From NCBI RefSeq assembly GCF_011320225.1, contig NZ_JAAOEN010000007.1, positions 183,253-247,252 on the forward strand: a stretch of DNA of 64,000 bases. Direction: 5' to 3'. Positions 6,797 through 41,938 of the stretch are shown here, one piece after another; the stretch's first letter is position 1, and every line of letters begins with the position of its first letter. This stretch comes from Phytoactinopolyspora limicola. Its GTDB lineage: Bacteria; Actinomycetota; Actinomycetes; Jiangellales; Jiangellaceae. Made by a program: the position numbers and the translations under genes. The notes beneath the pieces are model-generated. The model did not search any database, was not told the origin of the DNA, and saw only the letters and a program-made list of their open reading frames with translations.

Positions 6797-6854
6797 CCCA
6801 TGATCATGAACACTTTGCCGTGCTATCGCACGGCAAAGTGTTCATGATCATGGG
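6797..6854. terminator. Perfect 27 bp hairpin between binding protein and glycerophosphodiesterase
   Basis: Arms 6797-6823 and 6828-6854 are perfectly complementary with a TATC loop. The outer part reads CCCATGATCATGAACACTT, shared word for word with the hairpin between ilvN and ilvC at 19255. There is no U-tract, so it could terminate transcription, protect the 3' end of the upstream message or be a REP-like repeat. Confidence 0.75.
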
Positions 6855-7589: not shown

Positions 7590-7627
7590 CTGCCCGGCCA
7601 CTAGTGGCCCACCCAGGCCACTAGCTT

Positions 7628-7678
7628 GATCATGTGCGAGTTACACCCCGCAGGGTGGGGGTAACTCGCACATGATCA
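7628..7678. terminator. GATC-type hairpin between convergent genes
   Basis: Perfect 18 bp arms, 7628-7645 (TGATCATGTGCGAGTTAC) and 7661-7678, with further imperfect pairing of C-rich and G-rich stretches inside. It lies between the convergent GDPD and propeller genes and would serve as a bidirectional terminator. It belongs to the same GATCATG-ended group as the hairpins at 6797 and 19255. Confidence 0.7.
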
Positions 7679-7706
7679 TGACCAGGCGCTCAACCGGCCC
7701 CGGCCC

Positions 7707-9223: not shown

Positions 9224-9277
9224 ACGGCCCTGGCCGGGTGCGACACCAGCGAACGTGTCGCACCCGGCCAGGGCCGT
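9224..9277. terminator. Perfect 23 bp hairpin downstream of the first symporter gene
   Basis: Arms 9224-9246 (starting ACGGCCCTGGCCGGGTGC) and 9255-9277 are exact complements with an eight-base loop. No T-run flanks it. It lies about 160 bases past the symporter stop and just beyond an 18 bp tandem array, and may end the symporter transcript. Confidence 0.65.
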
Positions 9278-9283
9278 GGAACC

Positions 9284-9427
9284 GGTCAACTCCGCCGCGT
9301 CGGTCAACTCCGCCGCGTCGGTCAACTCCGCCGCGTCGGTCAACTCCGCCGCGTCGGTCAACTCCGCCGCGTCGGTCGACTCCGCCGCGTCGGTCAACTC
9401 CGCCGCGTCGGTCAACTCCGCCGCGTC
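9284..9427. repeat. Eight-copy 18 bp tandem repeat
   Basis: Eight head-to-tail copies of GGTCAACTCCGCCGCGTC, identical except for one A-to-G change in copy six (9374-9391). Because the unit is a multiple of three, all frames stay open and encode hexapeptide repeats (VNSAAS on plus, TDAAEL on minus). No start signal or coding context supports a gene. It lies directly downstream of the symporter stop at 9440. Confidence 0.9.
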
Positions 9428-18199: not shown

Positions 18200-19314
<1,115 letters not shown>

Positions 19315-37215: not shown

Positions 37216-39033
37216 ATGACAGGCGGTAATCGCGGGGCGGGCGGTGGGGCGCCCGATGAGCCGTCCGGCGCGGCGTGGGCTCCACGGTCCAGCCCGACGC
37301 CGGAACGCGCCATGCCAACAAGTGGCGATTCGTCGTTCCACCTCGCTGGCTACCACGACTTCATCGAGGTCGCCCGGGGCGGCGACAGCGTCGTCTACCG
37401 CGCCCGCCAGGATGGCCTCGAACGAGACGTCGCCATCAAGGCGGTGTCGATCGACGATCCCTCGACCCGCGCCCGCTTCCAGCGGGAACTAGACATCACC
37501 GTCCGGCTCGGCCGGCAGCATCCACACATCATCACCGTCCTCGACACCGGCACCAGCGCCTCGGGCCACGCGTGTATCGTGATGGACTTCTTCGACCTGG
37601 GGTCGGTCCACGACCGCGTCACGACCCAGGGGCCATTGTCCGTCGACGACGTCATCACCGTAGGGTCCGTGGTGGCCGACGCGCTGCATTTCGCCCATGG
37701 TCACGGCGTGCTGCACCGCGACATCAAACCGCAGAACATCCTGGTCCTGCCCACGTCATACGTGTTGGCGGACTTCGGCATCGCCCGGATGGCCGACGCC
37801 GGCCACACCGCGTCGTTGGAACGGTTCAGCTACCGGCACGCCTCGCCCCAGGTGCTCGATGGCGAGCCACCAACCCCGGCCGACGACGTCTGGTCGCTCG
37901 GGTCCACCATGTTCACTCTGCTCGACGGCCGCCCGCCGTTCTCGGCCGACGACCCCGACGACGACACCGCCCTGGCCTATCTGCGCCGCGTCCGTAGCGG
38001 TGAACTACGGTCCCTATACCGCCCGGACGCTCCTCGCGAGCTGGTGCGGATCGTCGAGTGTTGCCTCAGCGCCCGGCGGGAGGAGCGCTTCACCGACGCC
38101 GCTACCCTCGCGGCGGCGCTGAGCGGGCTGCGCGCGGCCGGATCGTCCTGGGCGCCTGGTGGCGCGGGAACCGCGGTGGGCGCCGGCAGCGAGAGCACGG
38201 GTGAAACTCCGGGCGACGGTGGGCGCGGGGTTGGCGACGCCTCGCCGACGTCGCCTCCCGGCACTCATCCAGCGCCCGCGCCTACGGGTAGCACCGTCAC
38301 CTGGGGGCCGGTCGACGCCGTGCCGTCGCTGCCTCCACCGCAGCCGGCCGCCCCAGGACCGGTTGCACCGTCGGCCTTGGCCCACCTGGCTGCGCCTGCC
38401 GCGGGCACCCAAGCACTCGGACGGGTCGCGTCCGGCCCGTCCACCTTCGATCCCGACCCCGACGTCACCGGCCTCCGGCCCGCCGAGCCGTCGCCGGCTG
38501 AGCCGGTCACCCCCGACGACACCCCCACCGGCACGCGCTCTGGGCGCTCCCGGTGGATGGTCACCGTGGCATTCCTAGGTGGGGCGCTGCTGCTCGGCAC
38601 CCTCGGCGGCGCACTCATCGCGGTGCTCGGATCCGGTGGCGACGCCGACCCGGGTGTCCAGGCGTCCACCCCACCCGCCGGCGGTCAAGAGATCCCCGTC
38701 GACCCCGAACTCACCCCGGCCAACGACGCACTCGACCCGACCGTGAACGACCCCGACGTGGCGCCCAGAAGAGTGCTCATCAGCGACCAGGGCACCAGCG
38801 TCCGAGTCAGTTGGACTGATCCGACTGAGGGCAACGCCATCTTCATCGTCGTCGACGTCACTGACGAAACCAGCACGCCGCATGCGGTCGCGCAAGTGGC
38901 GCAGGAGCGGGAAGACGTCACCATCGAGGGCATCGACCCGCAACAGCCGGAGCTGTGTTTCCAGGTGGTTGGGATCCTCGCCAACGACCCCGACCGCGCC
39001 GGTGCATCCGAGCGCACCTGCCTCACCCGCTAA
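37216..39033 (+). CDS. Receptor-type serine/threonine protein kinase with FN3-like ectodomain
   Basis: A 605-residue membrane kinase (PknB-like). The kinase domain at about 43-300 has the Gly loop VARGGDSVVYRARQ, Lys in DVAIKAV, catalytic loop GVLHRDIKPQNIL, ADFGIARM, and SPQVLDGEPPTPADDVWSLG. A Pro/Gly-rich juxtamembrane linker (310-445) leads to one membrane helix (WMVTVAFLGGALLLGTLGGA) and an outer FN3-like domain (about 515-603) with two Cys. PASTA domains are absent. ATG preceded by GAGGGGAC. It is convergent with the secretion operon across the long inverted repeat. FHA proteins encoded there are plausible phospho-targets, an inference from known kinase-FHA pairing. Confidence 0.9.
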   Translation: MTGGNRGAGGGAPDEPSGAAWAPRSSPTPERAMPTSGDSSFHLAGYHDFIEVARGGDSVVYRARQDGLERDVAIKAVSIDDPSTRARFQRELDITVRLGRQHPHIITVLDTGTSASGHACIVMDFFDLGSVHDRVTTQGPLSVDDVITVGSVVADALHFAHGHGVLHRDIKPQNILVLPTSYVLADFGIARMADAGHTASLERFSYRHASPQVLDGEPPTPADDVWSLGSTMFTLLDGRPPFSADDPDDDTALAYLRRVRSGELRSLYRPDAPRELVRIVECCLSARREERFTDAATLAAALSGLRAAGSSWAPGGAGTAVGAGSESTGETPGDGGRGVGDASPTSPPGTHPAPAPTGSTVTWGPVDAVPSLPPPQPAAPGPVAPSALAHLAAPAAGTQALGRVASGPSTFDPDPDVTGLRPAEPSPAEPVTPDDTPTGTRSGRSRWMVTVAFLGGALLLGTLGGALIAVLGSGGDADPGVQASTPPAGGQEIPVDPELTPANDALDPTVNDPDVAPRRVLISDQGTSVRVSWTDPTEGNAIFIVVDVTDETSTPHAVAQVAQEREDVTIEGIDPQQPELCFQVVGILANDPDRAGASERTCLTR

Positions 39034-39040
39034 CCCCCTC

Positions 39041-39765
39041 CCCCGTTGTGCACCTGATCGTCGTTTTGTCACCTGATCTTCTTTATGGCGACGATCAGAT
39101 GCGTAAGCGATGGCGACGTTGCTGGTCAGCGCGCGGTAGCGTCGTCTGATCGCATCCCGCGATACGGACGGTAAACGATCAGATGCACCAACGGGCCCGG
39201 CACGGCCGTTTATGCATCTGATCGTCCAGCGCTGCGCATCGCGGCATCGACCGCTCCGCCACAAATCTTCTGGTCGAATGCCTATGTACGCCAAGCGCCG
39301 GCGCCTGGTGCGTTGAACGCCGGTTGGCGCGCCCGCTATGCACCCTTTGTGGAGGCGCTCGGCGTACCAGGCGTCAGTGTCGAGGGTTGCCACTGTCACA
39401 AACAGCGACGGTGCTCTGCGGCGATGGTCGCTAGGCACGACGCGCGGAGCAGGCTGGATCGCAACGCGAAACGGCGACGATCACCGAGCAGCGCGGTGAA
39501 CGAACGAGTGGCCGGGGCCCGATCCGGCCGCACATGCCCGGACGTGGTCGCGCTTGTCCGGTCCACGACGTAGACGGCTGACGATCAGATGCATAAACGG
39601 CCGTGCCGGGCCCGTTGGTGCATCTGATCGTTTACCGTCCGTATCGCGGGATGCGATCAGACGACGCTACCGCGCGCTGACCAGCAACGTCGCCATCGCT
39701 TACGCATCTGATCGTCGCCATGAAAAAGATCAGGTGACAAAACGACGATCAGGTGCACAACGGGG
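39041..39765. mobile_element. 725 bp element with 186 bp near-perfect inverted arms
   Basis: Left arm 39041-39226 and right arm 39580-39765 are reverse complements with only about two mismatches (TTCTTTA versus TTTTTCA near 39080 and 39725) apart from the extreme ends. Each arm itself contains several CTGATCG/CGATCAG palindromes that would fold into smaller hairpins. The 353 bp centre has no supported gene; frames crossing it only reflect the symmetrical arms. It fills the whole gap between the convergent kinase and TgpA-like genes. No transposase is present. It could be a non-autonomous transposon-like unit or a giant bidirectional terminator; the class is uncertain. Confidence 0.6.
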
Positions 39766-39766
39766 G

Positions 39767-41938
39767 TTAGGGGCGGCGCAGGAGTCGGGGGTCCACCCAC
39801 CAGAGGAGCCGACGGGTCAGGCCCGCTCCGCGACGCAGGTCGCGGCTGACCGCGGAGGCGAGCAGCCACGGCTCCGACGTTCCACCGCCGGCCCGCCGGC
39901 CACTGCGGGCAGGTTCGGCACGCGGCGCGAAGGCGGCCCGTTCGGCGAGTTCGGCTAACAAGCCGGCCCCGACCCGGCCCGGCGCATCCTGGGCCAGCGC
40001 ACCGGCCAACCCCGGGGCGGGCAGGTTGGGCACCGGACGCTGCCCGGCCAGCCACCACGCGTCCAGCGTCTCCTGCCAGGCGCCGACCGCCCCGGTGCGC
40101 CGATGCCTCAGCCGGCGGCGCAGCCGCAACCCTACGATCAGCGCCGCGGCGGCAGCCACCAGCAGTCCGGCCGTACCGGCGAGTACACCGATGGCGGGTC
40201 CCGCGGCGGTGTCCTCGTCGTCGCGGTCCGCGGCCTGTGGTTCGGCCGTGGGCTCAGGAGAGTTCGCCGGATCGTCAGGGCCGTCGTCCTCGGGGATCTC
40301 GTCTTCGCCGGTGAGGATCTGCCGGTCGCCGTCGCCGAGGTCACGTTCGGATGGAGTCGGATCGAATGCCACCCAGCCCGCGCCGGAGAGGTAGACCTCG
40401 GGCCACGCTTTGGCGTGCCGGCCCATGATCACCGACACGCCGTCGGCGTCTGGTGGCGGGACGTCGAAGCCGACGACGAGCCGGCTGGGTATTCCCAGCG
40501 ACCGGGCCATGACGACGAACGCGGTGGCGAATTGCTCGCTGGTGCCTCGTTGGGCCCCGGGTAGGTCGTCGTCGCCGAACAGGAAGTCTTCGAGCCGGGC
40601 ATACGAGGATCCGACCGGCGCGACCGGGTCGAGGGTGCGGCCGACCCGGACCAGCTCCTCCAGGGCTAGCGCCTGCTCGCGCCTCGTGGTTGCGTGCTCG
40701 ACGCCGCTGGCCGCGTATTCGGCGAAGGAATCGGGTAGTCGCGGCACGTCGAGGTAGCGCTGGGGGACGACGGCGGGTACCCCGGCGCGTCGTTGTGCAC
40801 CGACCGGCGCCCGGTCGGCCGTGCCGCGCACGGTGTAGCGGAGCCCGGTGTGCAGCCCGGCTGGGCGCACGACGCTGCCGGTGTCGGGGTCGACGTAGAC
40901 GTCGTCGAGTGAACTGGCCGAGGGCAGCCCGGCCGCTGGCAGCCAGTTGCCGTCCAACTCGGCGATCTCGACGACGATGTCGTAGTCCTCGTTGTGCCGC
41001 CCAGGTGGAAGATCGGCCCGGCCCACCGATCCCAACGGCTGGAATCGAGCGTCGACCCGCCACCGGGCGCCGTCGAAGTCCGGCATGGCCACCAGTGCCA
41101 GCTGTGCCGGCGGTGTGCCTCCCACCCGGAACAGTTCCAGGTCTACCTGTTCCTCCCACCACCCCAGTAGCGGGAGTGGGCTGGTGGCGGCGACGTCGAC
41201 CACCGGGGGCGCGACGTGTTCTCGGGGCTCGAAGGCGTCGTCTCCAGGGAGCGCGGCGGCGACCAACGCTGCCGACGCCGAGACGACCAGAGCCCCGATC
41301 CCGGCCAGGGCCGCGGCGCGGCGGCCGGGCGATCTGCGCAGTGCGGCCCGGGCGGCTCTCGATCGGGCGTCGGGGCGGTCCAGCAGGATCCATCCGGCGC
41401 CGGCCAGAACCACCACCGCGACGGCCACCACGCCGTACCGGTCCGCTTCGCCGGCGGTCAGCAGCGCACCGGCGACGTACACCAGCGCGGCACCGGCCAC
41501 CGGGGCAACACCGAGCCGGTGCCCCCGGTCCACCAGCAAAAACACGGTCAGCGCCACCAGTGCTACCAGCAACCCGGTGGGCGCCAGCAACTCGGCGACG
41601 GCGGGGGCCGGCCGCGGCGAGGTCAGCAGCGTCGGCACCGCATCGATGAGCGGTCCGAGCAGCGACAACCCCGGGGAGTCCCGCCATGCCGGCAGTTCGG
41701 TGACCACGGCGGGGTCGTGTGCGGCCCGCAGGACGGCCAACGCCACGGCGGTGCACAGCCCGCTGGCGGCGGCCGCCACGAGCCATCGGGGCAGCTTGAG
41801 GGCGCGACCGGCCATCACCAGCCCGAGCGGGATCAATACGGCGAGGGCCAACGCCGGCAGGGCAGCCCAGCCTTGGTAGGCGGGTGCGAGCGTCAGGCTG
41901 GCGGTCAGCAGCACCAGTGCCGCCCAGGCGAACCTCAT
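39767..41938 (-). CDS. TgpA-like membrane protein with transglutaminase-like domain
   Basis: A 723-residue protein of the DUF3488/TgpA type. About six N-terminal helices (1-220) are followed by an extracytoplasmic region with the transglutaminase-like core, one more helix near 590-615 (IGVLAGTAGLLVAAAAALIV) and a DUF4129-like cytoplasmic tail. In the core the position normally occupied by the nucleophilic Cys reads RGTSEQFATAFVVMARSLG (near 464), so Cys is Ser. The His (GRHAKAWPEVYL) and Asp (VAFDPTPSE) are kept. It may thus be a non-hydrolytic binding domain. The ATG at 41938 overlaps the DUF58 gene stop as ATGA. It is the last gene of the secretion operon. Confidence 0.85.
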   Translation of the reverse strand: MRFAWAALVLLTASLTLAPAYQGWAALPALALAVLIPLGLVMAGRALKLPRWLVAAAASGLCTAVALAVLRAAHDPAVVTELPAWRDSPGLSLLGPLIDAVPTLLTSPRPAPAVAELLAPTGLLVALVALTVFLLVDRGHRLGVAPVAGAALVYVAGALLTAGEADRYGVVAVAVVVLAGAGWILLDRPDARSRAARAALRRSPGRRAAALAGIGALVVSASAALVAAALPGDDAFEPREHVAPPVVDVAATSPLPLLGWWEEQVDLELFRVGGTPPAQLALVAMPDFDGARWRVDARFQPLGSVGRADLPPGRHNEDYDIVVEIAELDGNWLPAAGLPSASSLDDVYVDPDTGSVVRPAGLHTGLRYTVRGTADRAPVGAQRRAGVPAVVPQRYLDVPRLPDSFAEYAASGVEHATTRREQALALEELVRVGRTLDPVAPVGSSYARLEDFLFGDDDLPGAQRGTSEQFATAFVVMARSLGIPSRLVVGFDVPPPDADGVSVIMGRHAKAWPEVYLSGAGWVAFDPTPSERDLGDGDRQILTGEDEIPEDDGPDDPANSPEPTAEPQAADRDDEDTAAGPAIGVLAGTAGLLVAAAAALIVGLRLRRRLRHRRTGAVGAWQETLDAWWLAGQRPVPNLPAPGLAGALAQDAPGRVGAGLLAELAERAAFAPRAEPARSGRRAGGGTSEPWLLASAVSRDLRRGAGLTRRLLWWVDPRLLRRP

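Follow-up and report, generated by a model that had tools for sequence, protein, structure and literature searches.

The window (the whole stretch of 64,000 nucleotides of Phytoactinopolyspora limicola DNA that was analysed) holds two convergent genes, each of which adjoins one arm of a long palindrome. These are a Ser/Thr protein kinase gene (PF00069; 37216..39033, + strand), with its stop codon TAA at 39031-39033, and a gene for a TgpA-like transglutaminase (PF01841, PF11992; 39767..41959, - strand), which also stops with TAA (TTA at 39767-39769). The left arm (39041..39226, + strand) is one repeat unit of about 182 bp with its head directly 3' of the kinase stop codon, and the right arm (39580..39765, - strand) is a second, inverted unit with its head directly 3' of the stop codon of the TgpA-like gene. 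The centre between them (39227..39579, 353 bp) is not palindromic. The initial annotation had placed the arms and the centre correctly and had described arms of 186 bp with about two mismatches; exactly two were counted, at 39081/39725 and 39084/39722. It had also equated the element with the whole gap, and the element does fill the space from one stop codon (39033) to the other (39767). On the kinase side, the C-rich leader CCCCCTCCCCC (39034..39044, + strand) runs from the stop codon to the unit and overlaps the outermost bases of the arm, and a C-run leader (39762..39766, - strand; GGGGG on the + strand) is found on the opposite side. The sub-hairpins previously noted as CTGATCG/CGATCAG correspond to six CTGATC/GATCAG sites per arm. 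In the left arm, cores 1, 2, 4 and 6 point forward (39054..39059, 39073..39078, 39146..39151 and 39218..39223, + strand) and cores 3 and 5 backward (39093..39098 and 39177..39182, - strand); the six mirror cores of the right arm (39583..39752, - strand) start at 39583, 39624, 39655, 39708, 39728 and 39747.

Folded as single-stranded DNA, positions 39034-39773 gave -366 kcal/mol (z -39.8 against 20 shuffles). Across the window, 163 inverted 20-mer pairs were no more than 5 kb apart; the first ten of those outside the 39-kb locus belonged to two short hairpins (6797 and 9224). No Rfam match reached the gathering score in the window, the phage and plasmid collections gave no match at E 1e-5, and viral contigs gave 0 matches for two patterns. 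Parts of the centre of 41-81 bp match stretches in three other loci of this genome (L157, L049 and L150) and in loci L187-L189 of genome G013; the matched stretch, at about 39286-39375 of the window, looks like another repeat nested in the centre.

Structure and distribution of the repeat family

The 725-bp palindrome is a member of a repeat family and not an isolated structure. A search of the genome for other copies, as the initial annotation had proposed, returned 161 matches (84 + 77) to a pattern of the 52-base unit head with at most three mismatches (6.59 Mb in 40 contigs), the reversed control of this pattern giving 0. The whole element gave at least 134 matches, 40 of 207 candidates being scored. 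From 76 stretches taken from this genome (G000), 115 units of at least 60 bits were counted at 72 loci, the remaining four stretches holding none at that score; the cut-off for relatives was 35 bits. A unit measures about 165-182 bp and carries six CTGATC cores in the order > > < > < >, which was fixed across three genera. Motif cores were 98.1% conserved versus 71.0% for the other columns (108 of the 115 units used). The motif reads mostly GCAYCTGATCG here and mostly GTCACCTGATC in relatives, all six sites differing together. Two units face each other as an inverted doublet at 41 of the 72 loci, and most of the others hold one unit each, some units being truncated. Units of relatives, by comparison with the frequent doublets found here, are mostly single. 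Two minimal palindromes of about 170 bp (L131 and L136) consist of two facing heads about 40 bp apart, with neither tails nor centre. Unit heads also lie within about 500 bases of the ends of three contigs (C1 at both ends, C2 and C6 at their start); the end of C1 and the start of C2 carry the same 52-base head, so these contigs may meet in a doublet.

A second set of hairpins, perfect over 24-34 bp, was also observed, several of them directly 3' of genes and with stems such as CCATGATCATGAACACTTTGCCGTGC, containing TGATC. They are located in the window at 6797-6854 (preceded by a C-rich leader), 19255-19314 and about 7625-7680, and elsewhere at L031, L032, L049 and L164. Among perfect hairpins that lie outside units and measure 14 bp or more, TGATC or GATCA was present in 9 of 15 in this genome, those at L048 and L145 looking like unit remnants, and TGATC was present in 1 of 7 at the loci of relatives. 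The stretch 9224-9330 of the window comprises a perfect hairpin with the stem GGCCCTGGCCGGGTGCGACAC, followed by repeats of GGTCAACTCCGCCGCGTC.

Distribution was evaluated with the motif-pair pattern CCTGATC..GATCAG, counted on both strands so that a palindrome counts twice. It was found 306 times in this genome, 189 times in G011, 146 in G004, 117 in G014 and 79 in G021, 2-6 times in the congeners G001-G003 and not at all in four family genomes out of 22 (counts of 0-1 were obtained for G016, G012, G009, G006 and G019), and it gave 0 in the controls; the counts thus span 0-306 across the family and 2-306 inside one genus. A stricter head pattern occurred 14 times in G004, once in G001 and 0 times in G002 and G003. 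When the relative-type core was searched in one genome per species (84,980 species), 40 of the 43 stretches retrieved were from Jiangella, Haloactinopolyspora or Phytoactinopolyspora, the other three being from one Opitutaceae and two Chloroflexi. A sample of 197 genomes of the class contained a related palindrome in 12: ten were among its 16 family members, and two were among the 181 genomes from outside the family, with one place each; the reversed control also matched two genomes, once each. Used as a DNA query, the whole element matched 8 of 40 relatives' genomes (its own included), all in the family. As far as searched, the repeats are confined to Jiangellaceae, and the titles and opening lines of abstracts retrieved from the open-licence literature contain no description of them.

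Placement at gene ends, copies and shared positions

Genes were called with a codon-usage script, not taken from annotation. An upstream gene was called for 108 of the 115 units (none for seven), 90 of them in sense and 18 in antisense orientation, and 69 of the 90 sense gene ends fell within -40..+25 of the unit start. Most units follow a stop codon, and some provide it themselves: 11 of these 69 gene ends lie at the TGA of motif 1, and three more genes end at the TGA of motif 2 (+33). Of the 100 units whose head is complete, 90 show a TGA at +12 and 94 at +31 when read from outside. The 72 loci comprised 33 convergent, 27 codirectional and 1 divergent gaps, 11 being undecided. The 101 units of relatives include 84 distinct ones, of which 65 follow a sense gene and 15 an antisense gene, four being undecided; distances there are wider. 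Single units in codirectional gaps were in sense orientation 13 times versus 3 antisense in this genome, and 29 versus 12 times among the 84 distinct units of relatives.

The leader before the head is C-rich and G-poor in every gene context (56-68% C versus 36% in the window), with 68% C even in the 21 units without a preceding sense gene, and it thus belongs either to the element or to the target of the element; relatives have a weaker form of it (47% C, 27% G). The 69 flush genes stop with TAA (29), TGA (24) or TAG (16), as compared with 28 TGA, five TAA (two being those of this element's own genes) and four TAG in the window. The element might itself bring the TAA; stops preceding units in relatives, however, lack such a skew (TGA 52, TAG 11, TAA 2), and sdhB of G001 carries TAACCACCC though it is devoid of a unit. 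TGATC was considered as an insertion target and rejected, being kept as a lead: 24 of 315 stops in relatives' loci were TGATC, and the moeZ orthologues are not independent. It is the native stop context in 8 of 18 moeZ relatives, all of which stop with TGA, and in the G003 kinase gene.

There is one clear case in which a whole element was copied: L159 and L161 share 97.5% identity over 611 bp, including both arms, at two loci whose flanks are unrelated, and their likeness ends in the C-tract before the head. Large parts of other elements are near copies as well (L147/L155, 93.6% over 582; L148/L149, 92.7% over 585; L055/L160, 97.9% over 513), and several families of centres are common to multiple loci, other centres matching nothing. 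Identity between the arms of a pair ranged from 0.59 to 0.99 (40 of 41 pairs scored). Arms were reciprocal best matches among the 115 units in 13 of the 41 pairs and not in 27, one being unscorable; those of the window pair are 0.989 identical to each other versus 0.811 to the next unit. Such near-identical arms may result from arm-to-arm conversion or from recent birth of the doublet. The suggestion of the initial annotation that gene conversion corrects the arms is indirectly supported by the 13 reciprocal pairs, other elements combining arms of different subfamilies.

The corresponding gap in a relative was also inspected. In the congener G003, the kinase and TgpA-like genes are separated by 59 bp without a unit, an absence which could reflect loss as well as non-insertion, and in G004 no motif was found near the end of the TgpA-like gene (the kinase gene was not recognised there). 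For a moeZ-like gene, whose end was readable in 19 of 22 genomes, a unit directly behind the stop was present in G000 alone, where the last residue of the protein corresponds to that found in 17 of the 18 other genomes; an array is located about 600 bp further downstream in G011. For SUMT (6 of 21 ends readable), the G000 gene ends in the element and the other five have no unit there, the C-terminus being VVNVATPPPVCT in G000 versus VVNVATELSKP in G001. None of 15 other ends of an E2-like gene, which is followed by a unit at L055, had an array directly behind it, these homologues being at most 58% identical. Target-site duplications were not detected in the 26 of 41 pairs that could be tested (mean longest flank repeat 0.31 versus 0.28 +/- 0.11 when shuffled), and we know of no autonomous copy of the repeat. 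The dispersed copies, the duplication of a whole element at L159 and L161 and the absence of a unit at the G003 gene pair support the earlier proposal of a non-autonomous mobile unit.

Other positions are shared between species. At least five motif sites directly follow the sdhB stop in 7 of 19 genomes belonging to three genera (G000, G004, G018, G010, G015, G014 and G011), the array being reversed in G015; a single site was found in G017, ten genomes have no array, and the G013 sequence breaks off at the gene. Comparison of flanks yielded 24 cross-species locus pairs, which include many redundant ones and represent about nine loci; two of these loci are weak, and five join different genera (the groups of L038, L105, L123, L142 and L154). 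Relative to the shared gene, orientations agree in 15 of the 24 comparisons and are opposite in the other nine. Positions shared across genera imply that the family is old, and that some positions persist or are hit repeatedly.

Mobile repeats, host function and other explanations

These repeats probably constitute a REP/REPIN/BIME-like family of non-autonomous mobile palindromic elements, confined to Jiangellaceae as far as searched. Several observations count against this reading: none of the 22 family genomes contained the RAYT domain (Y1_Tnp, PF01797), which was detected in 5 of 14 control genomes, so that the REPIN partner is missing; target-site duplications were not found in the pairs tested; 27 of the 41 arm pairs are not reciprocal best matches; and the sdhB array of 7 of 19 genomes also fits a conserved host function. 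Two or three hairpins can form from the six-motif array of a unit, and an inverted doublet consists of two units facing each other across a variable centre. According to the mechanism we propose, an enzyme acting on the hairpins or on the motifs might copy the element, although the search for PF01797 found none; conversion between arms, or recent doublet formation, would then account for arm likeness. Copies would survive where they are harmless, just 3' of stop codons and particularly in convergent gaps, and selection against damage may thus explain the gene-end positions.

A tentative extension of this mobile-family reading, which we regard as possible but doubtful, is that of a third tag class of gene-end palindromes. 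A non-RAYT enzyme would recognise a TGATC tag and place copies at stops next to C-tracts, a single machinery serving the six-motif unit, the giant doublets and the second hairpin family (stems such as CCATGATCATGAACACTT; window 6797 and 19255). The lower frequency of TGATC in the hairpins of relatives than in those found here makes this less likely.

Alternatively, the repeat could be a host-functional 3'-end element, that is a terminator, an insulator or a stabiliser of mRNA 3' ends, in which case doublets would arise from the need of each convergent gene for one. The sense bias of single codirectional units, the C-rich and G-poor leader, the units common to different genera behind sdhB and about four other loci, and the folding of one unit plus leader as RNA (-92.7 kcal/mol, z -4.4) are all consistent with this explanation, which we nevertheless judge unlikely. 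No intrinsic terminator (a GC-rich hairpin followed by a T run) was found in 38800-40000. In a covariation test that parsed 72 of 115 units here and 48 of 84 of relatives, compensatory change outside the motifs was weak and did not exceed that of control pairings; z values above 3 were scattered over single offsets, were also found in controls and were not counted as support. Likewise, the pattern is rare in the three congeners and missing from four family genomes, no unit lies directly behind moeZ in 18 relatives, behind SUMT in five or between the kinase and TgpA-like genes of G003, orientation is opposite in more than a third of the largely redundant cross-species comparisons, and the C-rich leader persists where no sense gene precedes it. 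The extreme bidirectional terminator put forward in the initial annotation fits as regards position, but no intrinsic terminator was found and covariation is weak; some of the loci may nevertheless serve the host in termination.

Selection could also have spread the units as arrays of sites for a DNA-binding protein, such as a nucleoid or roadblock protein. The conservation of motif cores relative to other columns and the joint difference of all six sites between this genome and its relatives are compatible with this idea; it is however very improbable, given the near-zero pattern counts in three congeners and that no candidate binding protein is known.

The initial annotation had further envisaged a recombination site allowing inversion of the centre. 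Long, inverted and near-identical arms would suit an invertible switch in which they flip the 353-bp centre, and among 6173 comparisons of units, seven gave an inverted match of the segment between motifs 5 and 6. Yet the four pairs of elements that were compared (L159/L161, L065/L156, L046/L051 and L055/L160) show no change in the orientation of the centre relative to the arms, no promoter match was found in 38800-40000, many centres have no similarity to others, and no frame is open throughout all five family-A centres looked at, so we attach scarcely any likelihood to such a switch. For the same lack of a frame open across these five centres, the centre was rejected as a gene. It was also observed that a loop of about 26 bp between motifs 5 and 6 exists in both orientations in one group of loci (L034, L053, L057, L143 and L153), which contains 6 of the 7 inverted-loop matches, as would be seen after the flip of a hairpin loop.

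Finally, that the palindrome is an assembly artefact has a negligible probability: as contigs C1, C2 and C6 have heads close to their ends, the repeat probably hampers assembly, but the two 186-bp arms differ at two positions, the centre and the flanking genes are not mirrored, and facing unit pairs recur at 41 of the 72 loci scored.

Comparison with known repeat systems

RAYT transposases are the usual explanation for how REP-type repeats spread. The family described here has the habits of REPs, with much larger units and with no Y1 transposase found in 22 relatives, and whether a different enzyme can sustain such populations is a testable question. The range of copy numbers inside one genus, together with the positions shared across genera, provides a natural series for comparing selfish spread with host use. 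As far as searched, the family is new in size, motif and host group.

As in REP and REPIN populations, the elements are dispersed extragenic palindromes in high copy number, occurring as singlets and inverted doublets near the stop codons at gene 3' ends, mostly in convergent or codirectional gaps, with termini that may supply the stop (PMC3733652 and PMC3116915). According to the former, most published REPs are located less than 20 bp away from a 3' end, and the stop codon is often provided by the terminus of a GTAG-REP. Several features differ, however. Units here are about 165-182 bp long with six motifs, whereas REP/REPIN units are palindromes of 20-40 bp; the consensus of 108 units has no conserved GTAG (or CGTC) foot at its hairpins; and the host belongs to Actinomycetota, the word actinobacteria being absent from the main text of PMC3733652. 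The family works like a REPIN population but, having neither this foot nor a RAYT gene in the genomes searched, stands outside the GTAG/RAYT class.

CGTC-tagged REPs (dRS3, RPE-4/6) are similar in being gene-end palindromes without a known dedicated transposase, but they differ in sequence, are much smaller and, in passages of PMC3733652, are reported from five phyla that do not include Actinomycetota. BIMEs, as described in parts of PMC2817692, are likewise composite arrays of palindromic units alternating in orientation; the order of the six motifs is by contrast fixed in three genera here, and the motif is different. MITEs share with the present elements a short, apparently non-coding and dispersed nature and the terminal inverted repeats that bound them, but no target-site duplication was found here, and the arms of these elements are long and structured.
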